Part shown: piece after piece, positions 6,570-26,651 of the stretch | Layout of the letters: the number at the start of each line of letters is the position of its first letter | Numbering within the stretch: the stretch's first letter is position 1 | The notes under the pieces: generated by a model | Told to the model about the DNA's origin: nothing | The model's database searches: none | What the model saw: only the letters and a program-made list of their open reading frames with translations | Position numbers and translations under genes: made by a program | Assembly (NCBI GenBank): GCA_944350085.1 | Contig: CALVNY010000001.1 | Span: 1-64,000 of the forward strand | Length of the DNA stretch: 64,000 nucleotides | Reading direction: 5' to 3' | Source: an uncultured Clostridia bacterium | GTDB taxonomy: Bacteria > Bacillota > Clostridia > Christensenellales > UBA1242

Positions 6570-8516
6570 TTAAACTTCAATAATAACAGGCAAAATTAAT
6601 GGACGGCGTTTAAGTTTTTTATAAAAATAGTTTCCAAGTAATTTTTTGATATTTATTTTAACTTGTGACCAATCTTGTGATTTAAAGTTAAAACTACTAA
6701 TTGCATTTATAACAACATCTTTGCCTTCTTCAAGCATTGGGTCGTTGTCGTTAAGATACACAAAACCACGAGTTATAAGTTCTGGTTTTGAAGTTAATGC
6801 ACCTGTCATATTGTTAATTGTTATTGTAACAACACACAAACCTTCTTCGCTAAGTTGAATTCTATCTTTTAAAACAGTTGAACCAACATCGCCAACACCA
6901 AGACCATCAACTAACCTTATTCCACTTGGAACATTGTCTGATAATTTAATTGCTTGCTTATTAATTAAAATTTGGTTTCCTAGGTCTGGAATAATGATAT
7001 TTTGTTTTGGAATTCCAACGCTTTCTGCAATATTTGCATGTGCTTTAAGTTGCCTATATTCTCCATGAACAGGCACAAAGAATTTTGGACGAACTAATGA
7101 CAACATCAATTTTAATTCTTCACTATATGCGTGCCCTGAAACATGCACATCAGCAATTTGTTCATATATTACAGAAGCACCTTTACGATAAAGCAAATTT
7201 ATAACTCTATTTATTGTAACTTCATTTCCAGGGATTACTGAACTTGACAAAATAATTAAATCGTTTTCGCCAATTTCAACCTTGTTAAATTCCCCTGCAG
7301 CCATACGAGTTAATGCACTTGCTGGCTCCCCTTGTGTTCCTGTTGAAATAATACAAATTTCGCTATCGGCATATTTGTCAATAGTTGAAATGTCAATAAT
7401 TTGCCCTTTATCTAATTGCAATTCGCCTAGTTTGCTTGCTGTTTCGCAAACATTAACCATACTTCTGCCACTAAACGCAACTTTACGGCCATATTTTTTA
7501 CTAATATTTAAAATTTGTTGAACACGATGAATATTGCTTGCAAATGTTGCAACAAAAATTCTTTTTTGTTTGTTTCCATTAAATATATTATCCAAAGTTT
7601 CGCCAACTTTAATTTCTGGCATACTATATCCTGGGCGTTCAGCGTTTGTGCTATCACTTGTTAAAAGCAAAACCCCATTGTTGCCTAGTTCAGCAAAGTG
7701 TCCTAAATCCATTTTGTCTTTGTCAAGTGGAGTTAAGTCTATTTTAAAATCTCCTGTGTGAACATACATTCCAACAGGTGTTTTAATTGCAAAAGCAACT
7801 GAGCCACTAATACTATGAGTCACTTTTAAAAATTCAATTTCAAAACAACCAAGTTTAATTTTTTGATTTGATTTTATTGTGTTTAATTTAACCTTTTTTA
7901 AGTTTCTATGTTCTTTTAATTTGTTTTCAATTAAAGCATTAGTTAATCTTGTTCCAAATATTGGTGCTTCAATATCTGTTAAAACATAAGGTATTGAACC
8001 AATATGGTCCTCGTGTCCGTGTGTAATAATAATGCCTTTTATTTTGCTTTTATTTTGTATTAAATAAGTTATGTCTGGAACAACCAAGTCAACTCCCGGC
8101 ATATCGTCGCCCGGAAATGTTAGCCCACAGTCCATTACAATCATATCGTTGCCATATTCCAAAGTTGTCATATTTTTGCCAACTTCGCCAACACCACCTA
8201 AAAAACTAATTTTTAAGTTTTGCATACTGTGTCTAACTGGTTTGCTTCTTGTAACTTTTGTTTTTGTTTTACTGTTTGCTTTTGCATTTTCATCTTCCCA
8301 AACAATTTTATTGTTTGAAACAAACCTACTATTTAAGTTGCTTGCTAAAACGTTTGAATCGTTAATTGTTAGATTGCTTGATGCTTCACTTACATCAACA
8401 TTTGCTTCATTATTTAATTCATTTGTTTTAAGATTTTTACTTGTAGATTTTTTACGGTTATATCTAAAACCTTTTTTATTTGTGTTTTCTTTTGTAATAT
8501 TATTATTTGTTTCCAT
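6570..8516 (-). CDS. rnj: Ribonuclease J
   Basis: Metallo-beta-lactamase/beta-CASP ribonuclease with endo- and 5'-3' exonuclease activity, central to mRNA decay and rRNA maturation. The zinc-binding motif HGHEDH is at about residues 166-171, and the later conserved motifs 'HVSGHAYSEELKL' and 'PVHGEYR' are present. I start at 8516 because AGGAGG lies 5 bases upstream; a longer reading frame from 8579 lacks such a site. The catalytic core begins only near residue 100 ('LKISFLGGVGEVGKNM'). It is preceded by a basic, Asn/Lys/Ser-rich, probably disordered extension that makes the protein 648 aa rather than the usual 555 or so. First gene of the rnj-trmR-trhP unit. Confidence 0.93.
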   Translation of the reverse strand: METNNNITKENTNKKGFRYNRKKSTSKNLKTNELNNEANVDVSEASSNLTINDSNVLASNLNSRFVSNNKIVWEDENAKANSKTKTKVTRSKPVRHSMQNLKISFLGGVGEVGKNMTTLEYGNDMIVMDCGLTFPGDDMPGVDLVVPDITYLIQNKSKIKGIIITHGHEDHIGSIPYVLTDIEAPIFGTRLTNALIENKLKEHRNLKKVKLNTIKSNQKIKLGCFEIEFLKVTHSISGSVAFAIKTPVGMYVHTGDFKIDLTPLDKDKMDLGHFAELGNNGVLLLTSDSTNAERPGYSMPEIKVGETLDNIFNGNKQKRIFVATFASNIHRVQQILNISKKYGRKVAFSGRSMVNVCETASKLGELQLDKGQIIDISTIDKYADSEICIISTGTQGEPASALTRMAAGEFNKVEIGENDLIILSSSVIPGNEVTINRVINLLYRKGASVIYEQIADVHVSGHAYSEELKLMLSLVRPKFFVPVHGEYRQLKAHANIAESVGIPKQNIIIPDLGNQILINKQAIKLSDNVPSGIRLVDGLGVGDVGSTVLKDRIQLSEEGLCVVTITINNMTGALTSKPELITRGFVYLNDNDPMLEEGKDVVINAISSFNFKSQDWSQVKINIKKLLGNYFYKKLKRRPLILPVIIEV

Positions 8517-8921
8517 ATTCCTCCTAAATTTTGCAATTATTCCTAAATTAAAATGATTAAATAATATTATAAAAACCAATTATAATGTTTTATAAAAATT
8601 TGTTGACAAACTTTCCTTTTTGCAACAAAAAATCATAGTAGACAAACTACAAATTAATAACATTTTTAATAAATTTAAAATCATTTTTTATTAAAATAAA
8701 ACTTTTAAATTTATTGACAATCAAATTAATTTAAAGAATTTTTGTTTTTTATTTTATTTTAAGTTAATTAAAAAATTAACATAATTGACTTTATTAAATT
8801 AAAATATTAAAAATATTTAACAAAAATATTTAACGCTTTTTATATTATACACTAAAATTAAAAAACTTTAAACATATTTTACATTTTTTTCTTTTAATAT
8901 AAATTTTTATGACAAATTAAA
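8517..8921. other. AT-rich intergenic region, no gene seen
   Basis: About 400 bp of extremely AT-rich sequence between rnj and the membrane-protein gene. It should hold the rnj promoter on the minus strand. I see no open frame with a ribosome binding site and no structured RNA. Confidence 0.6.
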
Positions 8922-8960
8922 TTAAAAAACTTCCTAAATTGCTTTAAATTAAGGAAGTTT
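8922..8960 (-). terminator. Terminator after membrane-protein gene
   Basis: AAACTTCCT (8927-8935) pairs with AGGAAGTTT (8952-8960), extended by AATT/AATT, and is followed by T-rich sequence on the minus strand. Confidence 0.75.
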
Positions 8961-8965
8961 AATAA

Positions 8966-9916
8966 TTATATAAAATATTTTGTTCTTTTTAACTTTTCAG
9001 TTGCTTCCATTTTTTTAGGTTCAACAATTGTGTTATTGTCAACATAATAACGCATACCATAACTACCATAATATGCAGACATTTGAAAAGTTGTTTCAAG
9101 CACCATACTTAATGGGATTGTAATAATTAATCCTGCACCCAAAGTGAATATTAATGCAAAACCATTTATCATAATGATTGTTAAAACAATCCCTATGCTA
9201 TTAGCAAATATTTTAAAAAATCTACGATTAATAAGTTTAAAATTGTTTTTTAAACATTTAAATATACCATCGTTTTTAACAGAAATCATTGGCATCCAAC
9301 AACTAAATAAACTAATTTTTAGTGACATTAAAATCACAATTACCAACACTATAATAAAAGGTGTTAAAATTGCCATTGCCGTGCCTAATGAAAATAATTT
9401 AAAGCATTGTATTATAACATATCCAATAAATATGTCAATAGGAAAAGTTGTTATAAACTTAACAAGTTCAAATAAAACAACCTTTGAAAAGTTAGAAAAA
9501 TAACTTGAAAAAATGCCAATTTTCATATTGTTGCTCATACTTGCATATAAACAATAAGCACTAGAAAGTTTTGTTTGACCAATTAAAAAGCGTCCTAAAA
9601 AAACAACAATAAAAATAAATAAAACAATAGAAACCCAAATGTTAGAAAAGTTATTTATAATAATTTCAAAAAATGAAGTTGATATTTCGCCCAATCCCTT
9701 TATGAATTCTAACAAGTTTAAGTTTGTAACAAAACCTTCAAAAACATCTTTAATTAAATTAAAAAAACCATTATTTGCCAAAACATTAAAAACAGGAACT
9801 GCTGAAACATATGCTAATCCACCAATTACTGCAAGTGTAATTAGTGTGTATAACATAACTTTCCAAACCAAATTAAAATTAGAAAATAATATCCTTATTG
9901 AATTTTTGTACATCAT
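8966..9916 (-). CDS. Hypothetical multi-pass membrane protein, 316 aa
   Basis: No family recognised with confidence. About six hydrophobic segments are visible: residues about 18-40, 95-115, 145-170, 178-200, 235-258 and 262-285. A cytoplasmic basic C-terminal tail follows. The arrangement of helices around a 'FKCLKNNFKLINRRFFK' amphipathic region recalls uncharacterised membrane proteins of the DUF975/YIP1 kind, but I cannot place it. The gene is monocistronic with its own terminator and lies just downstream of the phage-like block. Two adjacent ATG codons are possible starts; AGGGTGA lies 7 bases before the first. Confidence 0.75.
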   Translation of the reverse strand: MMYKNSIRILFSNFNLVWKVMLYTLITLAVIGGLAYVSAVPVFNVLANNGFFNLIKDVFEGFVTNLNLLEFIKGLGEISTSFFEIIINNFSNIWVSIVLFIFIVVFLGRFLIGQTKLSSAYCLYASMSNNMKIGIFSSYFSNFSKVVLFELVKFITTFPIDIFIGYVIIQCFKLFSLGTAMAILTPFIIVLVIVILMSLKISLFSCWMPMISVKNDGIFKCLKNNFKLINRRFFKIFANSIGIVLTIIMINGFALIFTLGAGLIITIPLSMVLETTFQMSAYYGSYGMRYYVDNNTIVEPKKMEATEKLKRTKYFI

Positions 9917-10110
9917 AATAAAATCACCCTAAATATACTATTAGTATATATTATATGTTTTTACAAATCAAATAAATTTTAATGTAGTTTTTGTTTTTGA
10001 TAATTAAAGTAAAATTTAAACACACATAGTAAATAGTAAAATAATTTAAAATTTTTTAATACTTTTTAATACAATAAATTTTACTTTAATTTTTCAATTT
10101 ACAATTCAAC

Positions 10111-10142
10111 AAAAAAACACCAACAAAAGTTGGTGTTTTTTA
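10111..10142 (-). terminator. Terminator of the phage-like operon
   Basis: AACACCAAC (10116-10124) pairs perfectly with GTTGGTGTT (10129-10137) around an A4 loop, extended by A5/T5 and followed by T-run on the minus strand. It lies 16 bp after the last holin gene and marks the downstream end of the block. Confidence 0.9.
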
Positions 10143-10157
10143 TTTAATCACTATTAT

Positions 10158-10391
10158 TTAATCACTATTTTCTTCATTATGTGTATCTTCATTTAAATTT
10201 TCTTCTTCATTTTTAGTTGGGCTATTTATTACACCCAAAATAGTTAAAATTCCTAAAATGGAATTTATTATGTTATTTACTAAATTTTCATCAATTTTAA
10301 AACCAAAATTTTCTGCCACAAACTTAACAACTAACATTATTGATGCTGTAAGCCCTACCCAAAAGGAATAATTTTTTAACTTTTCTTTCAT
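10158..10391 (-). CDS. Phage holin, phi LC3 type
   Basis: Small membrane protein (77 aa) expected to form holes in the cytoplasmic membrane at lysis. One hydrophobic segment at about residues 9-26 (FWVGLTASIMLVVKFVAE) and a second at about 39-56 (IINSILGILTILGVIN), followed by 'SPT' and a highly acidic tail. The 'ILGVINSPT' ending of the second helix is typical of the phi LC3 holin family. The start overlaps the previous gene's end as TAA-T-ATG, suggesting translational coupling. Last gene of the block. Confidence 0.75.
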   Translation of the reverse strand: MKEKLKNYSFWVGLTASIMLVVKFVAENFGFKIDENLVNNIINSILGILTILGVINSPTKNEEENLNEDTHNEENSD

Positions 10392-10392
10392 A

Positions 10393-10656
10393 TTAACCTG
10401 CCTTTTTTCTGCTAGAAATTACTTTTTGTTTAATTTTTGTAACATCTTGCCTTATTTCTAAAACATCTTGCTTTATTTCAACAACATTTTCTTCAACCTT
10501 TTCAACAACACCCAAAGATTTGTTTAAACTTGAAATTGTGCTTTGATATTTACTTTCTCTTACCCTACTATCTTTTAGTAAATAAATAAGCAATCCTAAA
10601 AACATTACAGCCCAAAGTCCATTTGTTATTGCTAGGTCAACAATTTTGTCCCACAT
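10393..10656 (-). CDS. BhlA/UviB-type holin-like protein
   Basis: One N-terminal membrane helix (about residues 10-28, ITNGLWAVMFLGLLIYLL), then a charged segment and a coiled coil with regular EIKQDV/EIRQDV/KIKQKV heptads and a basic C terminus (SSRKKAG). This architecture is that of the BhlA/UviB family found beside holins and bacteriocin release genes. I start at 10656, giving 87 aa, because this ATG follows the upstream stop as TAA-T-ATG. A TTG seven codons earlier lies inside the preceding gene. No amidase or lysozyme gene accompanies the two holins. Confidence 0.75.
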   Translation of the reverse strand: MWDKIVDLAITNGLWAVMFLGLLIYLLKDSRVRESKYQSTISSLNKSLGVVEKVEENVVEIKQDVLEIRQDVTKIKQKVISSRKKAG

Positions 10657-10657
10657 A

Positions 10658-11602
10658 TTATTTTTTAAAATTTTCAATTAATTTGTTGTAGTTTGTTTCA
10701 CCAAGCAATGTTTTAAACTCTGAATTGTTTTCCAAAACATCAAGTGCTTCTTCTTTCGAATAACCTGAAAAATAGTTTAGCGCTGTGTCATACATTTTAT
10801 TGCTTTTGTATTTATCTACAACCAATGCCCCGTACTTGCCGTAAAGTTCCAAAGCATCTACTTCTTTGTCCCAATTACTATCAGCAATATCTTTTTCAAG
10901 TTCAGCTAAATTTTTATTAAACTCTGCTTCCTTTTCTGCAATTTCATTGTTGTACTGTATTACCTTTTCTTGTTCTTCTTTTAATTTTTCAGTAACACTA
11001 CTTATTTTTTCAGATAATTTTGACGCATATTCAATATCAAAATCATTCAATGCTTCTTGATAACTAGAATTTAGAGCACTTAGTTCAAAATTTATTGCAT
11101 TAATATTATCTGATAATTCTTTATCAATTTGATTGTAAGTTTCAATTTCTTTGTTATTAAAAGCATCAAGAGTGTTGATTACAATACTGCTTCGAGCAAG
11201 CCCACGCTTTAATGCGTCATTGCTTGCATTTTCCCTTAGAGTATTAAAATCTTCTTTTGCACTTTCTTTTTGGTCACTTGCTGTATTTTTTAATGTTTCA
11301 ATATTGCTATTTAATTCGTTTTTGCTAGTTTCGTAATTTTTGTTTATGTTGTTTATTGAAGTGTTTTTGTAATCTTCTAATTGAGTTATTGCATCTTCTT
11401 TTATTTTTTCATTATTAATTTCCACATTGTCTAAATATGTAAAATTAGGACTTTCTGGCAATTTAATACTATCTTTTGTCGAAAATGTGTCATTTATTTC
11501 CTTTAACTTAGATATTAAATCATCAGTACTGTTTTTTGAATTTGTAGATAAAACCTTGTTTGCTTGATTTTCTATTTCATTTGTAACTTTATATTGATAC
11601 AT
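10658..11602 (-). CDS. Phage-type coiled-coil protein (possible ejection or internal protein)
   Basis: No family recognised by name. Of 314 residues, about 70-255 are predicted alpha-helical coiled coil, rich in Glu, Asn, Lys and Ser. It contains a short 'ALKRGLARSSIV' segment I associate with proteins at this place in clostridial podovirus-like genomes. It has no signal peptide or membrane segment. In P22-like viruses the genes after the tail hub encode needle and DNA-ejection proteins, so an internal or ejection role is possible but inferred only from position. AGGAG lies upstream of the start. Confidence 0.6.
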   Translation of the reverse strand: MYQYKVTNEIENQANKVLSTNSKNSTDDLISKLKEINDTFSTKDSIKLPESPNFTYLDNVEINNEKIKEDAITQLEDYKNTSINNINKNYETSKNELNSNIETLKNTASDQKESAKEDFNTLRENASNDALKRGLARSSIVINTLDAFNNKEIETYNQIDKELSDNINAINFELSALNSSYQEALNDFDIEYASKLSEKISSVTEKLKEEQEKVIQYNNEIAEKEAEFNKNLAELEKDIADSNWDKEVDALELYGKYGALVVDKYKSNKMYDTALNYFSGYSKEEALDVLENNSEFKTLLGETNYNKLIENFKK

Positions 11603-11612
11603 TTTTTCTCCT

Positions 11613-12791
11613 TTATGTTGTTATGACTGATAGACCATTATAATTTAAACCAAGAAGTGTTCCACTAACATTGTAAATTGCCAAATAATTATAATAGTTT
11701 GAAACATTTGTAACACATGTTAAAAGCCTATCGCTAAATGTTTTTATTGTTGCAACACCATTTTTATATAAAACAATCGACACCGACGACTTTGTGTAAT
11801 ATCCAGAAGCATAATCGCATTTGCCTATGTACTTTTTGCTGTCAAAAGTTTTGTTTGTACTATTGTATCTTATAACATAAGCACCATCTTCACATATTAC
11901 ACCAAAAGAATAAAAATTGCTTGTGTTGCCGTTAACAAGTTTTATTGGAAATAATCTTTTAATTTTAGAATTGATTGGAACTTGAACTTTTGTTTCGGAA
12001 CTAATATTTGTTCCTGTAAGCGATGTTGTAAAATAATAAATTTCATTGTTTAACAAATAAAATACTCTAATTTGTGATGACGACACAGGAGTAAAAATTG
12101 CATGGTCGGGTTTTACATTTTTTAATGCAAATTTACCACCACTAATTAAATATTTTAAAGTTAGTTTTGATGTTTCTTCATTGTAAAACAAACCATACAT
12201 TGCAGCTTTTCTAGTTCCATTTATTGTACTATTAAAAGAATATAAATTATTAACTGGATTTTCAAACCTATATTCATCAAATAATTTGTTCAATGATGTG
12301 TATCTAGTGTAAACATCATTAAAATAAACAACATAGTATGTCATATTGTCGTCAAAATATAATGGTTCGTAGTTTATGTCTTCTTTTAAAACTCCGCAAT
12401 AATTAAAATTTATATAGTTAATTATTGGATAAACTGTGTCATCTTGAAGTGTGCTTGATGTTGTAAATTTTAAACAAACACTGTCCTGCCCCGAACTTAC
12501 AAAAGGAAAACTTAAATTTTGCAATTTACCAATAAAAACTACTGCATTGTTAATTACTAAACAATATTCAACATCTATTGTTAATTCTTGTGCGTATTCA
12601 AAACACATATTTAATTGAATAACTGTTCCACTTTTTGCTTTAATTGAGTGTTCAAAAAAATTATTTGAAAAATCAATGGTTTGATTTCTAAAAACTTTTG
12701 TAACACACTTTATTTCATCTTCAACAACTTTTATTTGTTTTAAAATATCTTCTGTTTTTTGATAGGCAATTTTACCATAATCTGTTTTCAT
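11613..12791 (-). CDS. Phage-type appendage or tail protein, 392 aa
   Basis: Not recognised by family. The first 45 or so residues look helical (an anchor or trimerisation segment). The rest is beta-rich with many Tyr, Thr, Asn and Ser and repeated short strands, including 'MYGLFYNEETSKLTLKYL' and 'IYYFTTSLTGTNISS', reminiscent of a propeller or beta-sandwich receptor-binding domain. It starts by a one-base TAATG overlap with the hub gene, so the two are translationally coupled. Position immediately after the hub suggests a tail appendage or receptor-binding role (inference). Confidence 0.6.
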   Translation of the reverse strand: MKTDYGKIAYQKTEDILKQIKVVEDEIKCVTKVFRNQTIDFSNNFFEHSIKAKSGTVIQLNMCFEYAQELTIDVEYCLVINNAVVFIGKLQNLSFPFVSSGQDSVCLKFTTSSTLQDDTVYPIINYINFNYCGVLKEDINYEPLYFDDNMTYYVVYFNDVYTRYTSLNKLFDEYRFENPVNNLYSFNSTINGTRKAAMYGLFYNEETSKLTLKYLISGGKFALKNVKPDHAIFTPVSSSQIRVFYLLNNEIYYFTTSLTGTNISSETKVQVPINSKIKRLFPIKLVNGNTSNFYSFGVICEDGAYVIRYNSTNKTFDSKKYIGKCDYASGYYTKSSVSIVLYKNGVATIKTFSDRLLTCVTNVSNYYNYLAIYNVSGTLLGLNYNGLSVITT

Positions 12792-14284
12792 TAGTAAAAC
12801 CCCACCACAATTTGTGGATTTGAAATATATGCTTCTTTTGTTGTTACTCTAAAATGAATTGCAAATTCTTTCCCAACCATATTTGCATTAATTTTAATTA
12901 AGTTGTTTACGGGGTTTACCACAAAGCTTTTTGTTTCTTTTTCACTTTCAACAATAACTTCAGTTTCTTGTTTTGCATTAAAATAAATTTCCTTTAAAAT
13001 TTTGTCTTTATTTGGATACCCAAAATCGTTTTTTGGCGAACGCCAAAATTTTATTGTTGGACTATCTAACACTCCACCCGATTCATCAATAAAACCCAAA
13101 ACACTTGCTCCATTATTTTTGTAGCAACAAAACAACTTTGAAAATGAAACATCTTGCGAACTATAAATATATGTTATGTCAATTCCACGAGTAATATTAA
13201 AAGTGCCATTTAAGTAGTCCAATTCAATTAAAGCATTGTTTGTAAAATTTTCGCTTTCACAACCTACAACTTCATCATCAGGAAAAGTTATGTTGCAAGC
13301 AAGATAGTATTTTCCATTATGATAGCAAGCAACGGCATTTTTTGTTGGATTTATTATGTTTTCAATGTTTAAAGTTAATTTTTGAGTGTTAATTCCATCA
13401 AAAGCATAAATTCCATCTTTTAACAACATTAAAATAACATCACCACAAACACAAACTGTGTTTTCATAAATTTTTGTACTGCCTAAAAATAAATGTGTAA
13501 CATTAAATTCTGCTTGGTCGCCATAAGCAGTTAATTTTGAAATTCCATATTCTCTAAAAACAAAAACATAATCTTTAAAATTAACAACCTTGTTTAATGG
13601 CCCCCTTGCATCAATCATATTAATAAATCCTGCTTCAACACTTGAAATATTCCAGTTTGTTGGGTCTAGGTCATCACTAAACCATAATGATATTTTTTCG
13701 CCGTTAACTGTGGCAAACAGTCTTTCATAATGCAAACACATACTTGTTATTGGTGGACAATCACTTGTTTGTTTATAATAACTTGTACCTGTAAAAACAT
13801 ACATCCCATCTTCTGGTGTTGAAAATATCATACAATCGTAGCCATCAAGTTTATATTTAATTGCCGTTGGAACACTTTCAAAAGTTAAAGTGCTATCAAT
13901 AGTACTAAAAAATGTAGTACCATCAATTAATGATGCATAATACAATTTTTTGTCCGAGCAATAAATTATAATATAAGTTTCAAAAGAATCTAGTTGTTCA
14001 ACATATCTATCAAATGACCAAACAGCAATAGCATCTAAACCATCGGGCGTAACCAAAGTTTTAAAGTATCTTCCACCATCTCGTTCCACATCAACTTCTA
14101 ACGGACCTATGCCTATTCCTGTTTTTAACGCTCCATTTTTAAAGTTAAAATTATAAGTGTTTTTACTATATGTTATCGGTGTTGAATATTCGTCATAACT
14201 TGTGTTTATTCCATTACCAAAGTTTGCATAATCAATTTTTTTATATGTTATGCTTTTGTATGGATTAAGCCTTAATTTATACAT
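12791..14284 (-). CDS. Phage tail hub/DNA stabilisation-like beta-propeller protein
   Basis: About 497 aa of beta-rich sequence. The segment 'ERLFATVNGEKISLWFSDD' followed by 'DPTNWN' is a pattern seen in podovirus tail hub and packaged-DNA-stabilising proteins (P22 gp10-like or T7 gp12-like). I place the start at 14284, not 14293. The AGGAG site touches the 14293 ATG with no spacer, but lies 9 bases before the 14284 ATG, which also overlaps the upstream stop as TAATG. Neighbours are the connector-like protein upstream and the appendage-like protein downstream. Confidence 0.7.
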   Translation of the reverse strand: MYKLRLNPYKSITYKKIDYANFGNGINTSYDEYSTPITYSKNTYNFNFKNGALKTGIGIGPLEVDVERDGGRYFKTLVTPDGLDAIAVWSFDRYVEQLDSFETYIIIYCSDKKLYYASLIDGTTFFSTIDSTLTFESVPTAIKYKLDGYDCMIFSTPEDGMYVFTGTSYYKQTSDCPPITSMCLHYERLFATVNGEKISLWFSDDLDPTNWNISSVEAGFINMIDARGPLNKVVNFKDYVFVFREYGISKLTAYGDQAEFNVTHLFLGSTKIYENTVCVCGDVILMLLKDGIYAFDGINTQKLTLNIENIINPTKNAVACYHNGKYYLACNITFPDDEVVGCESENFTNNALIELDYLNGTFNITRGIDITYIYSSQDVSFSKLFCCYKNNGASVLGFIDESGGVLDSPTIKFWRSPKNDFGYPNKDKILKEIYFNAKQETEVIVESEKETKSFVVNPVNNLIKINANMVGKEFAIHFRVTTKEAYISNPQIVVGFY

Positions 14285-14877
14285 TAAAACCATCTCCTAG
14301 GCTTAATATATAGTTGTTTTTTTGTGGACAATAAATTTAATAATGAATTTTTAAATCTAGTGTCCCACACACTAGCATCATCAAACAATTTTGTAATATA
14401 CAAATATTCACTAGCAACACCATACGCAAAAGTTTTTTCTGGTATTGTTACAACATTTACTTCGTCAGTAATTTCTAAGTCGTTTAACATATAAGTGTAA
14501 TTTACTTTAATTTTGCCAGTTTGATTAATTACAATTTCGCCACCAAAATCAGCAAATTGAATTTTTTTGCCTGATTCGTTTTCACAACTTATTACACTTA
14601 CTATCTCGTTAGATGAAATTTCATCATAACTAATTTTGCCAGTAGTTGTGTGAACCCAAACACTATCTTTTAGTTTTACATATTCACTACAAACAGTGTT
14701 TAAAACAAGATTAAAACACTTAACAAGCAAGTTTAAATTTTTAACTAAACTTGTGTTATTTACAACACTTTCACCATTAAAAGTTTTGGTTTCTTCATCA
14801 TAAGTATTTAAATATTCTAATTCATTTTCTAATTGTAAATATGTGCAGGTGTCCTTAATAACATTTATAACTTTCAT
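14284..14877 (-). CDS. Phage head-tail connector-like protein, 197 aa
   Basis: The C-terminal third has the pattern 'FAYGVASEYLYITKLFDDAS' ending in Trp, Asp and a basic 'KPRRWF' tail. I associate this with small adaptor proteins located between capsid and tail hub in clostridial podovirus-like genomes. A beta-rich middle (about 60-135) may be an Ig-like insertion. An excellent AGGAGG site precedes the start. The connector role (T7 gp11/P22 gp4 position) is inferred from gene order. Confidence 0.65.
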   Translation of the reverse strand: MKVINVIKDTCTYLQLENELEYLNTYDEETKTFNGESVVNNTSLVKNLNLLVKCFNLVLNTVCSEYVKLKDSVWVHTTTGKISYDEISSNEIVSVISCENESGKKIQFADFGGEIVINQTGKIKVNYTYMLNDLEITDEVNVVTIPEKTFAYGVASEYLYITKLFDDASVWDTRFKNSLLNLLSTKKQLYIKPRRWF

Positions 14878-14892
14878 TTTTACCTCCTACAC

Positions 14893-15231
14893 CTAGTTTT
14901 TTTGCAAATACTTTAACATAGAAGTTAAATCATATTTTGCTTTGTACTTTAATTCTTCATTTTCTTTTTGTTCCAATCGTTTATTTGAAATATCCATTTC
15001 TTTTATTAATTTATCAAAATTTTCTTTTCTTGTTTTTAACACATAATCAACGGCTCTTTTGTCCAAATTTTTATATGGAAGTGTTAGGCAATATGTTCCA
15101 AATGGTTGGTTTTTGTTGTGAATTTCAAACACTTGCTTGTTTTTAACATATAATACAAAATAATTTTCATCTATTTTTTTTAATCTACTAACAACATTAT
15201 ATAAATCATTTTTGATTTCAATTTTACACAT
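14893..15231 (-). CDS. Small phage-block protein, 112 aa, unknown
   Basis: Not recognised. The N-terminal half looks beta-rich ('YFVLYVKNKQVFEIHNK', 'GTYCLTLPYKN'), and the C-terminal half is a charged helix/coiled coil ending in 'MLKYLQKN'. It is the first gene after the internal hairpin that follows the capsid gene, and has its own AGGTAA site. Its position between capsid and connector is conserved in podovirus-like layouts, but no function can be given. Confidence 0.6.
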   Translation of the reverse strand: MCKIEIKNDLYNVVSRLKKIDENYFVLYVKNKQVFEIHNKNQPFGTYCLTLPYKNLDKRAVDYVLKTRKENFDKLIKEMDISNKRLEQKENEELKYKAKYDLTSMLKYLQKN

Positions 15232-15245
15232 AATTTTACCTATTA

Positions 15246-15282
15246 AAAAATTTATACAGTTGCTTAAAATTTAAGCAACTGT
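15246..15282 (-). terminator. Internal hairpin after capsid gene
   Basis: A perfect 12-bp stem (ACAGTTGCTTAA at 15256-15267 with TTAAGCAACTGT at 15271-15282) lies between the capsid gene and the next gene. It is followed on the minus strand by T-rich sequence. It may act as a partial terminator that lowers expression of downstream genes relative to capsid. Confidence 0.6.
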
Positions 15283-15317
15283 ACAATTCCAAATATTAAT
15301 TTAACATTAAAAGTTTA

Positions 15318-16502
15318 TTATTTAATGCCTTTTAGTCTTGCTTGTGCACATGGTCTGTCACAAATTAATTCTGCATATTTAACAAGAGTTGCAGAGTATG
15401 TAGCATAATTTGCGTTTTGTTTTAAAATTTTGCCATTATCTCCTTGCAACCATTCCCAATCACAAAGTTGATGCAAAGTAAAATCTTTTGTGTTTAAGAA
15501 ATACATTTCTTCGTCATCAACAAATCTGTCAGCAACAACAGGAATTCCATTGTATGAAATTGCTTTGTAACCACCATTTAGTTCCATAATATCAATATTG
15601 CGTTTATAACTATTTAAGTATGCTTGATATAATCTTCTAACCCCTGCAGAACAAGCAATAAAGTCAACTTCTGTTCCGTAAGTTTCTTCTTGCAAGTCTA
15701 AAACTTCTTGCATAGAAATTTCACTAAATTCTCCACTTAAAGTAATATCGTATGGATTTAACCATTTGTATGCTGTCCTATCAATTCCATAAAGTGTGCT
15801 ATCTGCACTAAAAATTTTTCCAAGTCCTGTAATTTCTTTACCAAAAGAATCTTGAATAACAAGCCCTTCAACACCAGTTAATGTAATTGTTGATTGTTGG
15901 TCTAAAACAACTTTTTTGTTTATTCTATCAACATAAACAATTTTACAGTTAGGTTTTGCACCTGAAATGCTTGCGCCATTTGTTGTATTTACAAAATTAA
16001 CAATCATTCCTTCCATTAATTTATTTGTTGAATCTACTTTATATGTTTTTGCTGTTTGTTCTTCGGAACTAGTTGTTTGGTCAATTTTTGCTAAAATTCC
16101 ACTACCATCACCATATAACATACGACCCAAATTAAAAGAACTAGATTTGATTAAATTTTCCATTTCGTTATTTAACAAGTTAACAAAAGCACCAGTATTG
16201 CTTGAACTTGACCTAATTGCTTTGTCACTTATTTCAATTTTACCAAACAAGTTTTTTAATTCTGCTTGGAAATTTAAGTAACTTGTTCCACTTGCATTTG
16301 GCAATGCACCATCTTCACTGCCTGCTCCAATGCCACCATTTATTCCAAAACTAATTGCTTTAATAATTTTTTTACCCCAAACATCACCTGTGCTTTGTTT
16401 AATTTTGCCAAGTAATGGGTTTGAATTCATATTAAGTTGGTTTGCAACCACATCTAAATACACATCTTTTAACGCTTTCTCAGCACTTTCTAATGTAATC
16501 AT
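15318..16502 (-). CDS. Major capsid protein (HK97-fold type)
   Basis: 394-residue shell protein. The N terminus 'LESAEKALKDVYLDVVANQL' and the segment 'KIEISDKAIRSSS' followed by a helix-rich spine-like region, then 'ISMQEVLDLQEETYG' and 'GIPVVADRFVDDEEMYFLN', fit the HK97-fold capsid proteins of podovirus-like phages, where the last of these belongs to the P/A-domain. It follows directly on the scaffold gene with AGGAG and is separated from later genes by a hairpin. No protease gene is present, in keeping with a scaffold-assisted head. The full-length frame has no frameshift. Confidence 0.8.
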   Translation of the reverse strand: MITLESAEKALKDVYLDVVANQLNMNSNPLLGKIKQSTGDVWGKKIIKAISFGINGGIGAGSEDGALPNASGTSYLNFQAELKNLFGKIEISDKAIRSSSSNTGAFVNLLNNEMENLIKSSSFNLGRMLYGDGSGILAKIDQTTSSEEQTAKTYKVDSTNKLMEGMIVNFVNTTNGASISGAKPNCKIVYVDRINKKVVLDQQSTITLTGVEGLVIQDSFGKEITGLGKIFSADSTLYGIDRTAYKWLNPYDITLSGEFSEISMQEVLDLQEETYGTEVDFIACSAGVRRLYQAYLNSYKRNIDIMELNGGYKAISYNGIPVVADRFVDDEEMYFLNTKDFTLHQLCDWEWLQGDNGKILKQNANYATYSATLVKYAELICDRPCAQARLKGIK

Positions 16503-16513
16503 AATTTTCTCCT

Positions 16514-17137
16514 TTATTTAAATAACTCCTGAACCATTTTGTAAGCATCGCTCATATTTGAAGGTTTGTTTTTAGGAGTTAAATTTAATGATGCACCCTT
16601 GTTTGAAGTCATAACAAAAGGTGCTTTTTCTTTTTTTGAAATGTATTCTTTTATAATAACATCTTTAATTTTGTCATTATTGTAAATATAATTATTTAGA
16701 AAGTCAGAATTTTCTACCAAGTCTTTTTCGTTTAAATTTTTCTTGCTTAAAATGTTTGCCCAAGCAAGAGTTAAACAATCAGATTTTTTGGCTAAATTTT
16801 CATCATCTAAAATTTGTTTTGCAATTTCTTTTGAATATTCTTTTGCCCCGGGATTTTCATTAAAGAAATTGTTTAATTTTTCTGGCCAATTATTAAGTTT
16901 ATATTTAGGAATATTATTTTCTTCTGCTTGTTTTTCTAACTCACTTAACCTTTGGCATTTTTTTGTAAATTCTGCCTGCAAACTGTTATAGGCAGAATTA
17001 AGTGCTTCAACACTTTTAAATTTATCTGAAATATTAGAGCCACAATTTAAGTTATTTTCACTCTGCCCCACATTTAAATCATTTTGGCTGTTTAATTCGT
17101 TAACTTGTGGTTGTTCTAAAATATTATTTTCTTCCAT
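16514..17137 (-). CDS. Phage scaffolding protein
   Basis: 207-residue acidic, helix-rich protein. A Gln/Asn-rich N-terminal tail is followed by 'KFKSVEALNSAYNSLQAEF' and a coiled coil (KKCQRLSELEKQAEE). This is the common N-terminal pattern of scaffold proteins in portal-scaffold-capsid cassettes. The C-terminal part is basic ('LTPKNKPSNMSDAYKMVQEL'), as expected for the capsid-binding end. It lies between portal and capsid, 9-11 bp from each. Confidence 0.75.
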   Translation of the reverse strand: MEENNILEQPQVNELNSQNDLNVGQSENNLNCGSNISDKFKSVEALNSAYNSLQAEFTKKCQRLSELEKQAEENNIPKYKLNNWPEKLNNFFNENPGAKEYSKEIAKQILDDENLAKKSDCLTLAWANILSKKNLNEKDLVENSDFLNNYIYNNDKIKDVIIKEYISKKEKAPFVMTSNKGASLNLTPKNKPSNMSDAYKMVQELFK

Positions 17138-17146
17138 AATTTACTC

Positions 17147-19054
17147 CTAATTATTTTCTATATTTTGATTTTGTAAACTATTTGCAATATTATTGCTTAA
17201 TATGTCTTTATGTAATTTAATATGTTCTAAAATTATATTTTCAACTTGTGGATATTTTTCAACCAATTTTTCATATTCTTCACTAAGCATATAACATGTG
17301 TGAGTGTTTATGTGAATTTCATTGTCATCAATCATTTTTGGATATGGCATTTCTTTATTTTTGAAAAGCAAAAAGTTTTCCTTATTTGCTCTTTTTACTT
17401 GCAAAGTTTTTAAATCTTGACTATTTTCCCAAATACCAAAACCAAACTGTTCCAAAATTTTATATCTAACCGAATTACTAATTTTTCCATTTTCATCATG
17501 CAGTAGTCCAGAATTATATAATTCCAAAATTGTGCTTCTTTTTTGTGCCAATGTTTCATTTAACTCATTTTCAGTTTCAAAAACAATTTCATCGGACCTA
17601 ATATTGCTATTTTTAAAATAGAACATCTCAACGCTACCATCGTTTTCAACCAACTTACATGAGTGCGGATAAATTGCATATTGCTTATATAATCTTAAAA
17701 TAAATTTTGCAATATTTTTAACAGCATCTCGAATTTGTTCGGCAGAATTTACAAGTTTAGTTTCATCTTGTTCTATTAATAATTGCAACGCAACACCACT
17801 AATATTTCCACCGCTTAAAACATCGTTTCTAAGCAAATCACTAACACCACTAACCGACAAAAATTCGTTAAGCAATCTTTCTTCTTCCAATGTAAAATCA
17901 GTTGGCACAGATTCAGAACTTATCATTTTGGGCAAATTGCTACCTTGCCTATAAACCAAAATTTTTCCGGGTGACAAACCTTCTTCTTCTAAATTGTCGG
18001 TGTCAACACTTCCATCTTCAACAGCCATAACTCCCATGCTTAGTCTATTTAAAAATTCGTGTTTTCTATTCTTAATTGCATTGTATGCTCTTTGAATAGG
18101 AATACATCTTGTAATGATGCTACTACCCCAAAAACAAGATGGAGTTGAAATTGAAGTTTGTTTTATAAAAGGAAAACCTCTTTTGCCATCAGCAAGGTTA
18201 ATAAATGGCAATTCGCCAATATAAAGCAATTTGTCATCAGCAACAATTATAAGTCTACCAAAAGGATACTCAACACTTGGGCTTTCATATTTTTCAATTA
18301 CAACACATTGATTGCTAATTTTTGTTGAAGTTGCCTTTACTGCACTTGAAGAATATCCAAGCCCACCATTATTTGAAATTGTGTCCAAAGTAAAAACATC
18401 AATATCCTGTCCTTTAACATCAACTCCCCAAATGTTTTTAATTTCATCAACATGATAACTTTTTGCGTGGATTATGCTTTTGCAATCTTCAATATTTTCA
18501 TAAGCATTGCTATCAGGATAAATTTCAAATGGACTAACAGCATTAATTTCAACATCCCCTTCAAAAATGTCAGTTCCATTTTCATCTTGTCCAATTTTTA
18601 ATCCAGCATTGTTGTTCCAAACAACTTTATAAAAAGATGTTCCACAAATTTCACTCCACATTGTTGCTGTTTGTAAAATTTTAGTAAGATTGGTTTTGTA
18701 ATTTACTGCTTTTAAAATTTTTTTGCTAATTTCTGCACAAGCAATATCTTCTTCTTCATCACTAAATGGAACAACACTCATACTTGGCCTTACACGGCTC
18801 AACTTACTCATTCTTAAATCAACTATTGGTGTAATATGATTAAAAACTTCCTTCTCTTGCCAAAAATATTGTTTGTTATAATCTTCAAGTTCCCCACTAG
18901 AATTTATTGTTGAGTACTGATTACCAACATAAAAATTTATGTTAAGCAACCACTCATTTTCAAAACTTTTTCTTGCATTTTGCCTTCTTTTAAAATCTTC
19001 CTTAGTTTCCGTAACTATGTCTTCAACATACATTTCTTTATTTTTTGTTTTCAA
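17147..19054 (-). CDS. Phage portal protein (P22-like)
   Basis: 635-residue dodecameric portal that seats the packaging motor at one capsid vertex. The N-terminal region 'FENEWLLNINFYVGNQ' and 'FNHITPIVDLRMSKLSR' plus 'RPSMSVVPFSDEEEDIACAE' is typical of podovirus portal proteins of the P22 type. The middle carries 'GSSIITRCIPIQRAYNAIKN', 'LSPGKILVYR' and 'GGNISGVALQLLIEQDE', also family features. The start is TTG, with AGGAG seven bases upstream; the first ATG is seven codons later and too far from it. The first codons overlap the preceding small gene by 17 bp. Confidence 0.85.
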   Translation of the reverse strand: MKTKNKEMYVEDIVTETKEDFKRRQNARKSFENEWLLNINFYVGNQYSTINSSGELEDYNKQYFWQEKEVFNHITPIVDLRMSKLSRVRPSMSVVPFSDEEEDIACAEISKKILKAVNYKTNLTKILQTATMWSEICGTSFYKVVWNNNAGLKIGQDENGTDIFEGDVEINAVSPFEIYPDSNAYENIEDCKSIIHAKSYHVDEIKNIWGVDVKGQDIDVFTLDTISNNGGLGYSSSAVKATSTKISNQCVVIEKYESPSVEYPFGRLIIVADDKLLYIGELPFINLADGKRGFPFIKQTSISTPSCFWGSSIITRCIPIQRAYNAIKNRKHEFLNRLSMGVMAVEDGSVDTDNLEEEGLSPGKILVYRQGSNLPKMISSESVPTDFTLEEERLLNEFLSVSGVSDLLRNDVLSGGNISGVALQLLIEQDETKLVNSAEQIRDAVKNIAKFILRLYKQYAIYPHSCKLVENDGSVEMFYFKNSNIRSDEIVFETENELNETLAQKRSTILELYNSGLLHDENGKISNSVRYKILEQFGFGIWENSQDLKTLQVKRANKENFLLFKNKEMPYPKMIDDNEIHINTHTCYMLSEEYEKLVEKYPQVENIILEHIKLHKDILSNNIANSLQNQNIENN

Positions 19055-19274
19055 TTTTTTTCTCCTTTCTTTTTTCAGTATTTAGCATATTTATAGGACT
19101 TTTTGGCACTATTTCTTTACCTATTGTCATATACATATCATTTACGCATTTTTTACATAAATTTAAACCATTACTAAAAAACCCTTTTTTGTACTCAAAA
19201 TTGTAATCAGCATAATTATTACAGCCAGCAATATCACATCTAATTTTATGTTTTACTTTTGACATTTTCATCAT
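19038..19274 (-). CDS. Small Cys-rich (probably zinc-binding) protein
   Basis: About 78 residues with four Cys (C-x4-C ... C-x2-C), suggesting a single zinc ribbon or treble-clef fold; the tail is Lys-rich. Several ATG codons lie close together (19274, 19271, 19265). GAGGTG just upstream favours 19274 or 19271; the frame also extends to 19289 without such a site. It overlaps the genes on both sides and lies between terminase and portal. Function unknown; a packaging-site or DNA-binding accessory is possible. Confidence 0.6.
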   Translation of the reverse strand: MMKMSKVKHKIRCDIAGCNNYADYNFEYKKGFFSNGLNLCKKCVNDMYMTIGKEIVPKSPINMLNTEKRKEKKIENKK

Positions 19275-19557
19275 TTGACACCTCATCATAAGTTTCTAAA
19301 ATTTGTTTTAATTTTTCTTTTTCTTGCATAAGTTCTTGAATGCTCATGTTTTCAATTTCTTTTTCATTAATGTTAAAATACTCTATTAAAAGTTTTAATG
19401 CCGTTATATCTGGAGCAACATCTTTTTGAGTAATCTTTTTTTTGTTTAACACAATATCATCTTCACCTTTAACAAACTCTTCACATGTTTCAGTTAGTGT
19501 GTAGCCAAGTGCTTTTTTAATTAAAGCATCTTCAATTTTTTTATTAATTTTTTTCAT
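19246..19557 (-). CDS. Small helical phage-block protein (possible terminase small subunit)
   Basis: 103 residues, mostly helical. 'KIEDALIKKALGYTLTETCEEFV' followed by 'KKKITQKDVAPDITALKLLIEYFN' is a pattern I associate with small proteins beside terminase in clostridial phage genomes; the C terminus is a Glu/Lys coiled coil. It starts one base after the terminase stop (TAA-T-ATG). A terminase small subunit would normally precede the large one, so this assignment is tentative. No other candidate small subunit is visible in the block. Confidence 0.6.
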   Translation of the reverse strand: MKKINKKIEDALIKKALGYTLTETCEEFVKGEDDIVLNKKKITQKDVAPDITALKLLIEYFNINEKEIENMSIQELMQEKEKLKQILETYDEVSNDENVKSKT

Positions 19558-19558
19558 A

Positions 19559-20998
19559 TTACATTAACCTAAATCTTTCATTTTTTAGTTTTAAAAATCT
19601 TTTCTCCTTGTCTTTTTGAATTTCACTTTTTTCAAATTTAACACTTTTTGCTTGCGGTTTTGACATTATATAATATCTAAGTTCGTCCATAGCGTGGTCA
19701 TCTTTTTTTATTGGAACATCTGCATTTCCCCAAAAGTAACCTTTGATTTCCCTTATCATATTTACACAAGTTTTAAAAATAAAAAGTTTGCTTATCCCGT
19801 TTGCATTTTTTAAATAACTTTTTACCCTTTGAATTCCTGAAAATAAATCTTTGTTAACTCTTGTATTAACATTAATTCCATAATCAAAAAATAATTCGCT
19901 AACGCTTTTTGTTGATGCCAATGTTTTTTGATTTGCTGCACTATCGATTAATGCACATATTTTTCCATTAACAGTAAACCAATTTAGTTTGTCACAAATG
20001 CTTTTTATTGAATTTGCATGATACTCAATATCCTTTCCTGCTTCATAGTGTTCGGCAATAACATATATGTTTCCATCATAGTCCACTGCATACCAATGAC
20101 AACTAAGTGGATTGTTAAGCCCTGGGTCAATAGAAATATTGTCATACCAATCAAAAGGCACATTAAAAGGTTCAATTACATTAACTTGTTCATTAAACTC
20201 AGGATAAACAAGCCCACTAGAATTAGTAAATAAACCAAATCTTCTTGCATCTAGTTCCTCCTTACTTAAAGTGTTTGAAAGTAAGTTGATTTCCTTTTTA
20301 CTCAAAAATGGATTGTCGTTCCACTCTATGTGTTCATGCCAAACTTCTGGATTGTTGTATTTGTTTAAATAAATTTCATCATACACCCAAGTTAAACCTT
20401 TTAAAGGAGTCATTGTTCCAAAAATTATTCCTTCTTTGTCAATGATTCTCATTAAACACTCTTTGTAAATGTCGTAAGGTGGTTCTTCATCAAACCAAAC
20501 ATAATCAAGGCTTGTGCCTTGAAATTTTTCTCTACCTTGATCACAACTTTTAAATCCAATTTTGCTTGTTCCACCAAACACATTTTTTATAACAATTGTG
20601 TCAATTATTCCAAGTTCTGGGCTGTCTTTTCTGCCCTGCAACATAATAATATCAACTATCCAATCTTTGTTTAAATAATGTAATATTTTGTTTTGTGCAA
20701 CATCTCTTTGCACTTGTGTGCTAAGTGACACAACCCAACCCACTGTGTCTTTTTTATTTTCTCTATATGGGTGACAACCTCTTGCAATCCAAATTGTTTC
20801 AACAGCCCCGCATTCTGTTTTGCCACTTCTGTTTCCACCAAACACCCATCTGTTCTTTTTTAAACACTTATGAAATTCTATTTGTTTTTTATGTTTTATT
20901 TTTCCGGCATTGTAATTAATTAAATTATTATTTGATTGTCTTTTTAAAATTTCTAAATTAATTTTTTCTAACCTGCTTTTTATTTGATTAATCTCCAT
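19559..20998 (-). CDS. terL: Phage terminase large subunit
   Basis: DNA-packaging motor with N-terminal ATPase and C-terminal RNase H-like nuclease. Walker A (GGNRSGKT) is at residues 54-61 and Walker B with the catalytic Glu (VWFDEE) at about 167-172. The motif-III-like 'GTMTPLKGLTW' follows at about 194-204. The nuclease acidic residues are all present: Asp291 (SIDPG), Asp352 (LIDSAAN) and the Asp433/434 and Asp438 cluster (KKDDHAMDEL). Full length at 479 aa. First gene of the block, with GGTGAT before the start. The upstream 150 bp shows no clear sigma-A -35 element. Confidence 0.93.
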   Translation of the reverse strand: MEINQIKSRLEKINLEILKRQSNNNLINYNAGKIKHKKQIEFHKCLKKNRWVFGGNRSGKTECGAVETIWIARGCHPYRENKKDTVGWVVSLSTQVQRDVAQNKILHYLNKDWIVDIIMLQGRKDSPELGIIDTIVIKNVFGGTSKIGFKSCDQGREKFQGTSLDYVWFDEEPPYDIYKECLMRIIDKEGIIFGTMTPLKGLTWVYDEIYLNKYNNPEVWHEHIEWNDNPFLSKKEINLLSNTLSKEELDARRFGLFTNSSGLVYPEFNEQVNVIEPFNVPFDWYDNISIDPGLNNPLSCHWYAVDYDGNIYVIAEHYEAGKDIEYHANSIKSICDKLNWFTVNGKICALIDSAANQKTLASTKSVSELFFDYGINVNTRVNKDLFSGIQRVKSYLKNANGISKLFIFKTCVNMIREIKGYFWGNADVPIKKDDHAMDELRYYIMSKPQAKSVKFEKSEIQKDKEKRFLKLKNERFRLM

Positions 20999-21149: not shown

Positions 21150-21947
21150 ATGAAAAAAATTTTTTTATTTAGTATATTTATAGTAATAGCATTATTTCAA
21201 TTTTTATTACCAAACGACATTGTTGTAAATGCAAATAGCATAAAATTTGCAAGAGTAAATAGTAGTGGTTGCTACCTATATAGAACTGCAACACTAAATC
21301 CACAAATTGGCAATATTTGGTGCGAACTTGAAAATTCCTACTTTGTTGAAATTGTTTCAGATTACAACGACGATTTTTACAAAGTTAATTACAATTCAAT
21401 AATTGGATTTGCTTACAAAAAGAACATAAATGAAGTTGTAAGTGTTCCATCTAGCCCATTTCCTAGCGGAATTAATGTTTCAATAAACTCTCAAAGTGGT
21501 TGTTATATGCGTTCATCACCAATTTCAAAAACAACAACCAATAACATTATCAAAACATTAGATAAAGGCACAAAAAACATTTTATTTATTGGATATGTTC
21601 ATGGCGATGAAAGTGTAGATTTAAAAGGAAACTTATGGTATTTAGTAAAATACGGAACAGATATTGGATACATTTATTCAGATTATGTTGAAAGCAAAGT
21701 TACAATATATCCAAATTTGGAAGAAATAAATTTACTTAATAATAATTATTCTTCAACACTAATTAACCCATTAACAAACACAACAACTTTAATTATTGTT
21801 GTTTCAATAATGATTCCTTGCTTAATTATTTTAATATTACTATTTTGTCCAAAGCCAAAAACAAGCAAAATTAGAGATAGCAAAACTGATGTTAAAGTTG
21901 TAGATATTAACGAACTTACAGACATATATAATGATGTTGATATATAA
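21150..21947 (+). CDS. Secreted, membrane-anchored protein with two SH3-like domains
   Basis: 265 residues. Signal peptide at about 1-29 (KKIFLFSIFIVIALFQFLL, cleavage near VNANS). Two bacterial SH3-like repeats follow at about 32-95 and 107-182, each with the 'GCYxR' start and 'GYIYSDYVE'/'GFAYKK' end pattern. A transmembrane helix is at about 210-234 and a short cytoplasmic acidic tail follows. Such domains usually bind peptidoglycan. It is transcribed divergently from the phage-like block, whose first gene starts 150 bp away. It shares its architecture with the 911-aa protein at 23122. A hairpin terminator follows. Confidence 0.75.
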   Translation: MKKIFLFSIFIVIALFQFLLPNDIVVNANSIKFARVNSSGCYLYRTATLNPQIGNIWCELENSYFVEIVSDYNDDFYKVNYNSIIGFAYKKNINEVVSVPSSPFPSGINVSINSQSGCYMRSSPISKTTTNNIIKTLDKGTKNILFIGYVHGDESVDLKGNLWYLVKYGTDIGYIYSDYVESKVTIYPNLEEINLLNNNYSSTLINPLTNTTTLIIVVSIMIPCLIILILLFCPKPKTSKIRDSKTDVKVVDINELTDIYNDVDI

Positions 21948-22146: not shown

Positions 22147-22701
22147 CTAAAAATTGTAAGCATATTTTTGTTTTGAAAAGTTTTTTAATTCACTAAGAGC
22201 CTTTTTTAATATAATATTATAATTTATTTCAGGCTCTTTTTTACAACTTAAAAAATGTAAATTGTTTTGATAAATATTCATAATCCAATTTTCATTTTTT
22301 AAATCATTTTCCAATTTTTCTTTTGAATAACCACATTGTTTAAACATTTCAAAAAGTTTTGATAGAGCCATTGATTTTCTTCTGAAAAATGTTCTAATGT
22401 TTATGTTATACATTGTTGATAAGTTTTTTGCAGTAACACCATCAATATAAAACAAAGTTAATATTTTAATGTCTGCATCATTTAGTTTACTCAAACTATC
22501 TTCAATCAAGATTTTTAAATTAATAAGTGTTTGTTTTTTATATGTTAATTCTATAATTTTTTCTGCACTATATTTTGTGTTTAAACTAACACCAAACCCA
22601 TTAAGTGAAGTTTTTTTAACTATGTCATCAATAGAATTGGAAATTGTTTCTAAATACCTATAAATTTCCAATAGTGTTTTTGCCCAAGCCTTGTTTTCCA
22701 T
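22147..22701 (-). CDS. Sigma-70 region-4-like protein (Xpf/ArpU-like candidate activator)
   Basis: 184 residues. The centre (about 60-125) resembles sigma region 4: 'LSKLNDADIKILTLFYIDGV' followed by a helix-turn-helix 'TAKNLSTMYNINIRTFFRR'. The region 2 core-binding block of full sigma factors is not evident. Proteins of this size with a region-4-like HTH occur in phages as late-gene activators (ArpU; PBSX Xpf is a sigma-like activator of its late operon). It reads toward the phage-like block on the same strand, 1.15 kb upstream of terL. AGGGGGAT precedes the start. Its own promoter is near consensus, and a LexA-type box lies farther upstream. The role is inferred from position. Confidence 0.65.
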   Translation of the reverse strand: MENKAWAKTLLEIYRYLETISNSIDDIVKKTSLNGFGVSLNTKYSAEKIIELTYKKQTLINLKILIEDSLSKLNDADIKILTLFYIDGVTAKNLSTMYNINIRTFFRRKSMALSKLFEMFKQCGYSKEKLENDLKNENWIMNIYQNNLHFLSCKKEPEINYNIILKKALSELKNFSKQKYAYNF

Positions 22702-26633: not shown

Positions 26634-26651
26634 TAAATTTTCTCCTTATAA

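Follow-up and report, generated by a model that had tools for sequence, protein, structure and literature searches.

A phage-derived particle gene cluster, most likely a podovirus-form gene transfer agent, in gut Clostridia of the order Christensenellales

We analysed a stretch of 64,000 nucleotides (the window; contig CALVNY010000001.1, positions 1–64,000) from an uncultured Clostridia bacterium (Christensenellales; UBA1242), in which positions 10158–20998 carry 13 co-directional minus-strand genes of phage type, every frame being open. The cluster to which this block belongs is a domesticated phage-derived particle system and most likely a gene transfer agent (GTA) of podovirus form. This assignment is supported by the distribution of the cluster, its flanking genes, its phylogeny, its low ratios of nonsynonymous to synonymous substitution (dN/dS), the absence of attachment (att) sites, the separation of its genes into two modules and a small terminase (TerS) that lacks its helix-turn-helix (HTH) domain. 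With less confidence, we favour a broader view, in which a podovirus-type GTA of ancient origin has been passed on, for the most part vertically, throughout an entire order of gut Clostridia that are mostly uncultured and have reduced genomes. In this view, the terminase/regulator module can separate from the particle module, and other Clostridia have related systems whose capsid genes are further scattered among housekeeping genes.

Distribution, chromosomal place and descent

The capsid protein is encoded in 34 of 35 genera of the window's family when one genome per genus is sampled, and two samplings combined place the gene in 57 of 59 genomes and 36 of 36 genera; the assemblies are mostly metagenomic. 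It is nearly always single-copy in the family genomes. Two tandem, intact and diverged capsid genes are found in some lineages (L074, L075, L078–L082, L085, L089, L091–L095, L132 and L139). The gene is present in 237 of 396 genomes of the order, and outside it, a class sample gave only scattered, more distant matches. Named relatives are uncultured Christensenella, Candidatus Onthoplasma (Christensenellaceae) and the isolate Anaerocaecibacter muris (Pumilibacteraceae according to NCBI), of which strain CLA-AA-M11 is a cultured carrier of the cluster.

Mapping of about 110 loci revealed one gene order, the recurrence of which in about 100 loci is far beyond chance. Upstream, it runs from polysaccharide deacetylase and SSB through a large secreted protein (not always present), a regulator and an SH3-domain protein on the opposite strand to the large terminase (TerL), TerS and a zinc-ribbon protein; portal, scaffold, capsid, a 112-residue protein (g112), adaptor, nozzle, one or more variable genes, DUF7934 and the holins follow. 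Membrane protein, RNase J, methyltransferase and U32 peptidase genes form the downstream flank. The cluster is flanked by the same host genes across many genera, and in one clade, the upstream flank is kept while the downstream genes are different. Many genera have the RNase J side, whereas the Onthoplasma-like clade has glycosyltransferase/cardiolipin-synthase-like genes. Since the flanks differ between clades and the modules can be split (see below), the location of the cluster drifts with the chromosome, as that of host genes does, and an integration hotspot of a single family was rejected on the same grounds. In the Onthoplasma-like clade (L034, L041–L049 and L134), the cluster has SpoIIGA- and SigG-like sporulation genes nearby.

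Close pairs (at least 85% protein identity; Nei–Gojobori method, NG86) gave median dN/dS values of 0.034 for TerL, 0.037 for portal, 0.050 for both capsid and nozzle, 0.092 for scaffold, 0.06 for the SH3 protein and 0.07 for the regulator. The cluster genes overall range from 0.034 to 0.12 and the flanking host genes from 0.017 to 0.085. Among 31 genomes, the capsid-plus-portal tree has 14 of 28 splits in common with the rpoB tree (permuted labels give a mean of 0.28 and a maximum of 4), with a Mantel r of 0.456 (permutation maximum, 0.387). The window's own genome is absent from the host tree, its assembly being without rpoB. These data show purifying selection and mostly vertical inheritance of the cluster. 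An earlier note on the window, made from its letters alone, had named conservation at the same chromosomal place together with purifying selection as support for domestication, and the family-wide presence, the conserved flanks, the rpoB congruence and the low dN/dS agree with this. In a comparison of genomes G005 (L124) and G053 (L126), the capsid and portal of G005 group with another family and its rpoB with G004, reflecting either lateral exchange or a binning error.

We found no long att-like direct repeats flanking the block, and hence none of the att sites by which the earlier note would have recognized an ordinary prophage. Also as stated there, the block contains no integrase, replication or lysin gene. 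Four tyrosine recombinases were found in the 1.14-Mb assembly, all of them on contigs other than that of the window. The Phage_Mu_F head protein has no match in the genome. An ordinary prophage, or a recent remnant kept by chance, would account for the phage-type genes and for the existence of related full phages (IMG/VR contigs L326, L330 and L334). Nevertheless, the cluster is near-universal in the family, occupies conserved sites, is congruent with rpoB and has dN/dS values far below 1; it is without integrase or att sites, its modules are split yet intact, and failing copies are visibly broken. We consider this explanation extremely improbable and have rejected it on the basis of distribution, synteny, phylogeny and the absence of att sites and integrase.

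Terminase and separable modules

TerL has a mean column identity of 68% across 19 sequences, with motifs that are invariant or nearly so, and it retains the Walker A and B, coupling and nuclease residues. Its partner differs from a complete TerS. Of the 19 members of the TerS family, 11 match phrog_309 (TerS) and eight match phrog_23444. The match of the window's protein to phrog_309 spans model positions 192–240 of 319, and in hhalign, the family aligns to residues 66–162 of TerS from Staphylococcus phage TPWB-09, the HTH of which comprises residues 23–83. The TerS proteins of phage contigs L326 and L334 are complete (157 and 165 residues, respectively) and have an HTH-like start; their alignment with the family profile starts at about residue 62–64. 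Because the median distance between the stop codons of TerL and TerS is about 106 codons, there is no room for the missing domain. Judged from these alignments, the 103-residue protein is a small terminase reduced to its C-terminal half, the N-terminal DNA-recognition HTH having been lost. TerS of RcGTA, the GTA of Rhodobacter capsulatus, has lost the same domain, binds DNA weakly and has no known sequence preference (PMC6854486), and TerS of the Faecalibacterium agent FpGTA is likewise without a DNA-binding domain (PMC12946183). A TerS without HTH is a reported GTA hallmark, which this cluster shares.

The genes fall into two modules: module A comprises regulator, SH3 protein and TerL, and module B comprises TerS, portal, scaffold, capsid, adaptor, nozzle, appendage, DUF7934 and two holins. 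As part of the domesticated-particle assignment, we regard both, with good confidence, as chromosomal genes kept by the host. The modules are linked in the window's own genome. In several genera, TerL is apart from the capsid genes, yet a TerL profile search recovers the full-length gene from another part of the genome. In at least nine genomes (G142, G085, G157, G106, G170, G183, G362, G379 and G015), TerL is located 21–103 kb from the capsid gene on one contig, with both modules intact. Moving the packaging motor far from the head genes is fatal for a virus but tolerable for a host system, and an unlinked TerL with both modules intact therefore points to a host system rather than a virus. 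The unlinked TerL retains its regulator and SH3 partner in loci where these are visible; since both stay with TerL, the regulator (22147–22701) and the SH3 protein (21150–21947) are two further members of the system.

The GTA-type TerL is full-length in nearly all tested capsid-positive genomes and absent or fragmentary in all 18 capsid-negative genomes checked. A 41-residue capsid piece and a partial TerL are left in G048 and a partial TerL in G058, and G033 has lost capsid, TerL and SH3 protein altogether. G335 has no capsid match and retains module A and the RNase J flank, its module B being either lost or hidden within an assembly gap. As failing systems are visibly broken (G048 and G058), intactness elsewhere is not merely a sign of youth. 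Module separation and the loss of the TerS domain, neither of which the earlier note had mentioned, point in the same direction as the domestication check.

The capsid might instead have been co-opted for another cargo or task, such as a protein compartment, storage or a sporulation-linked role, with DNA packaging being secondary. The SpoIIGA- and SigG-like neighbours in the Onthoplasma-like clade would fit this, but the catalytic motifs of TerL are kept everywhere, as are portal, adaptor and nozzle, and we give this possibility very little credence.

Two other arrangements were observed. In L171, L172 and L173 (class-level family f76), homologues of scaffold, capsid, the 112-residue protein, adaptor and nozzle stand alone beside a phosphoserine-aminotransferase-like (serC) gene. 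These are three species with capsids that are 93–94% identical, and TerL is located elsewhere in the two genomes checked; the set is a candidate for a second, more fragmented GTA. In L176 (9411–11450; family f107), a scaffold and capsid pair stands alone among housekeeping genes, near a serC-like gene, and no GTA-type TerL was found beyond one weak partial match.

Gene block and particle form

The features of the cluster and its surroundings, in window coordinates, are as follows (aa, amino acids).

22147–22701, minus strand: regulator, 184 aa, sigma-70 region 4/DUF1492-like (phage late-activator type), module A; weak Pfam matches, kept upstream of SH3–TerL in 63 loci
21150–21947, plus strand: bacterial SH3-domain protein, 265 aa, secreted, C-terminal membrane anchor, module A; SH3_3, E 6.7e-5; alignment; 70 loci
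19559–20998, minus strand: large terminase TerL, 479 aa; Terminase_6N, E 4.3e-14; phrog_2, 1.7e-34
19246–19557, minus strand: small terminase TerS, 103 aa, without N-terminal HTH; phrog_309/phrog_23444 matches among family members; hhalign
19038–19289, minus strand: zinc-ribbon-like small protein (CxxxxC...CxxC), 83 aa; clustered in 52 loci; present in phages L326, L334 and L330
17147–19054, minus strand: portal, P22-like, 635 aa; P22_portal, E 2.5e-22; phrog_156, 1.1e-35
16514–17137, minus strand: scaffold-like protein, 207 aa; between portal and capsid genes; 94 loci; dN/dS 0.09
15318–16502, minus strand: major capsid protein, 394 aa; phrog_14242, E 7.5e-53
15252–15286, minus strand: 16-bp stem-loop and T-run 3' of the capsid gene; sequence and fold
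14893–15231, minus strand: 112-aa conserved protein (g112) after the capsid gene; 95 loci; alignment; also capsid-adjacent in related phages
14284–14877, minus strand: predicted portal-to-tail adaptor, podovirus type, 197 aa; AlphaFold pLDDT 91; structure matches
12791–14293, minus strand: predicted tail nozzle/hub, podovirus type, 500 aa; AlphaFold pLDDT 88; structure matches
11613–12791, minus strand: appendage/receptor-binding candidate, 392 aa, YGKxAY-like N-terminus, variable body; position and N-terminal motif
10658–11602, minus strand: DUF7934 coiled-coil protein, 314 aa; PF25588, E 3.5e-36; homologue in phage L326
10393–10677, minus strand: BhlA-family holin, 94 aa; PF10960, E 4.4e-14
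10158–10391, minus strand: Phage_holin_1 holin, 77 aa; PF04531, E 1.9e-8; phrog_297, 3.5e-11
about 10100–10140, minus strand: intrinsic terminator at the operon end, hairpin AACACCAAC/GTTGGTGTT and T-run; sequence and fold
6570–9916, minus strand: downstream host flank, membrane protein (8966–9916) and RNase J (6570–8579); kept in many relatives
25959–27413, minus strand: upstream host flank, SSB-like protein and polysaccharide deacetylase; kept in many relatives

The earlier note had counted twelve intact, tightly spaced genes; intactness and spacing stand, and the number is 13. Intergenic gaps within the block range from −44 to +15 nucleotides, with the sole exception of 86 nucleotides 3' of the capsid gene. 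Its GC content is like that of the host, and the strong terminator described at its end is the hairpin and T-run listed above. For terminase, portal, the major head protein and both holins, profile matches confirm the roles that had been read. Around the block are housekeeping genes (gyrA, gyrB, SSB, polysaccharide deacetylase, RNase J, O-methyltransferase and U32 peptidase). The SH3 protein is always antiparallel to TerL and may act as a receptor, in immunity or in release. Positions 23122–25857 encode a secreted 911-residue protein with no family assigned, which is found beside the regulator in 19 loci.

The structure model of the 197-residue protein matches the tail chain of KHP30 with an E-value of 3.9e-7 (VIA Z 12.6, root-mean-square deviation 4.2 over 170 residues). 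That of the 500-residue protein matches the tail chain of Pa223 (E-value 8.5e-21, TM 0.71), and the VP1, GP4, P22 and T7 tail chains match too. The models confirm the proteins, formerly called connector-like and hub-like, as predicted portal-to-tail adaptor and nozzle of podovirus type, respectively. In gaps between the capsid gene and g112 of relatives, 39 of 56 foldable ones reach −7 kcal/mol or better, with sequences that are unlike one another. The strong hairpin 3' of the capsid gene is probably a partial terminator that raises capsid output (mRNA).

The 392-residue protein has no family match in profile searches. In about 12 loci, the same position is occupied by proteins with a YGKxAY-like N-terminal motif and bodies that are unlike between lineages, this being the most variable part of the cluster. 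A lineage-variable body with a constant N-terminus is expected of a receptor-binding appendage, for which the protein is a candidate. Such variability would also suit a domesticated weapon (PBSX- or tailocin-like), which would kill neighbours via its appendage without gene transfer, whether it packages host DNA or no DNA at all; holins are linked to the cluster and uptake genes are not, and PBSX packages host DNA, reportedly without injecting it (PMC12946183). However, terminase, portal, capsid and scaffold, which would be needless for a tail-only weapon, are all conserved under strong purifying selection. TerS has lost its recognition domain only, and the block contains no lysin or toxin gene. 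We therefore prefer a GTA over a killing particle and regard the latter as unlikely.

Relation to known systems and proposed function

FpGTA (Faecalibacterium, operons I and II), described in January 2026, is a podovirus-like GTA in a Firmicute (PMC12946183). While the domesticated podovirus-like particle proposed in the earlier note is supported, its novelty is not, given this precedent. Compared by published description and layout rather than by sequence, the two systems share their occurrence in gut Clostridia, a podovirus-like form, the lack of replication genes and a TerS without a DNA-binding domain. FpGTA has an operon of about 10.5 kb with TerS, TerL, portal, scaffold and capsid, is near-ubiquitous in its genus and has a second locus elsewhere. 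In the present cluster, by contrast, TerS follows TerL, holins and appendage are inside the main block, the TerL/regulator/SH3 module is separable, and conservation extends over a 36-genus family and much of the order. RcGTA resembles it in vertical inheritance, a TerS without HTH and genes spread over several loci, but is of siphovirus form, whereas the adaptor and nozzle found here are predicted to be of podovirus type. The Bacillus subtilis element PBSX, which is phage-like and defective and likewise resides in a Firmicute, is grouped with GTA-like elements; it is described as tailocin-like and not injecting DNA, in contrast to the short-tail proteins and order-wide conservation observed here.

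The viral relatives L326, L330 and L334, contigs of 48–60 kb, have homologous portal, scaffold, capsid, g112 and zinc-ribbon (g83) proteins, and L326 in addition has nozzle-like and DUF7934 proteins in the same order. Their capsids are only 37–42% identical to that of the cluster, and L326 and L334 have a different TerL, their complete, HTH-containing TerS being encoded upstream of the terminase region. Close genuine phages were sought among phage records and rejected, identity being no higher than 27.5% for the capsid and about 30% for TerL. Many IMG/VR matches above 45% identity are cluster fragments (L284–L325), several with host flanks (SSB, deacetylase and membrane protein), and dozens of database contigs labelled 'viral' probably stem from host chromosomes.

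We infer particle formation, random packaging, release and transfer as follows. The sigma-like regulator would turn the operon on in some cells, and scaffold and capsid protein would assemble a small head on the portal, with the capsid-gene hairpin securing extra capsid mRNA. The terminase, with a TerS devoid of recognition, would begin on any host DNA and fill the heads, which adaptor and nozzle would close with a short tail. Holins and a lysin encoded elsewhere may then open the cell, and recipients would take up the DNA, perhaps via ComEC, which is encoded in 55 of 59 relatives including the window's genome.

It should be noted that several points weigh against a GTA. The cluster is known from its genes alone. 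No capsid gene is present in 159 of 396 genomes of the order, and three strongly supported capsid/portal splits conflict with the rpoB tree, owing either to exchange between lineages or to misbinning. The dN/dS values come from few close pairs, in which dS is high and often near 1. The assembly is fragmented and has four tyrosine recombinases on other contigs. No endolysin is encoded in the block, and no lysin was found in those parts of the 64-kb window that were looked at. Finally, ComEC is common in bacteria and thus not discriminating.

Three of 25 reported GTA-like packaging events originate from Christensenellaceae, for which no gene cluster was described (PMC12946183); this is the only literature we found that joins Christensenellales and GTAs. 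The present cluster is a candidate source of that packaged DNA and, if the GTA assignment is true, the likely source of the Christensenellaceae DNA reported in faecal particles. It provides a candidate at the level of genes, with searchable markers in the HTH-less TerS, the TerL family and the split modules.

The GTA gene clusters known to us are few and come almost exclusively from Alphaproteobacteria. Order-wide presence of a cluster under selection in gut Clostridia with genomes of 0.8–1.4 Mb would mean that particle-mediated gene transfer is old and widespread in Gram-positive gut bacteria and that a GTA cluster is retained even under genome reduction. On this view, GTAs would belong to the standing functions of the host throughout the gut Clostridia.

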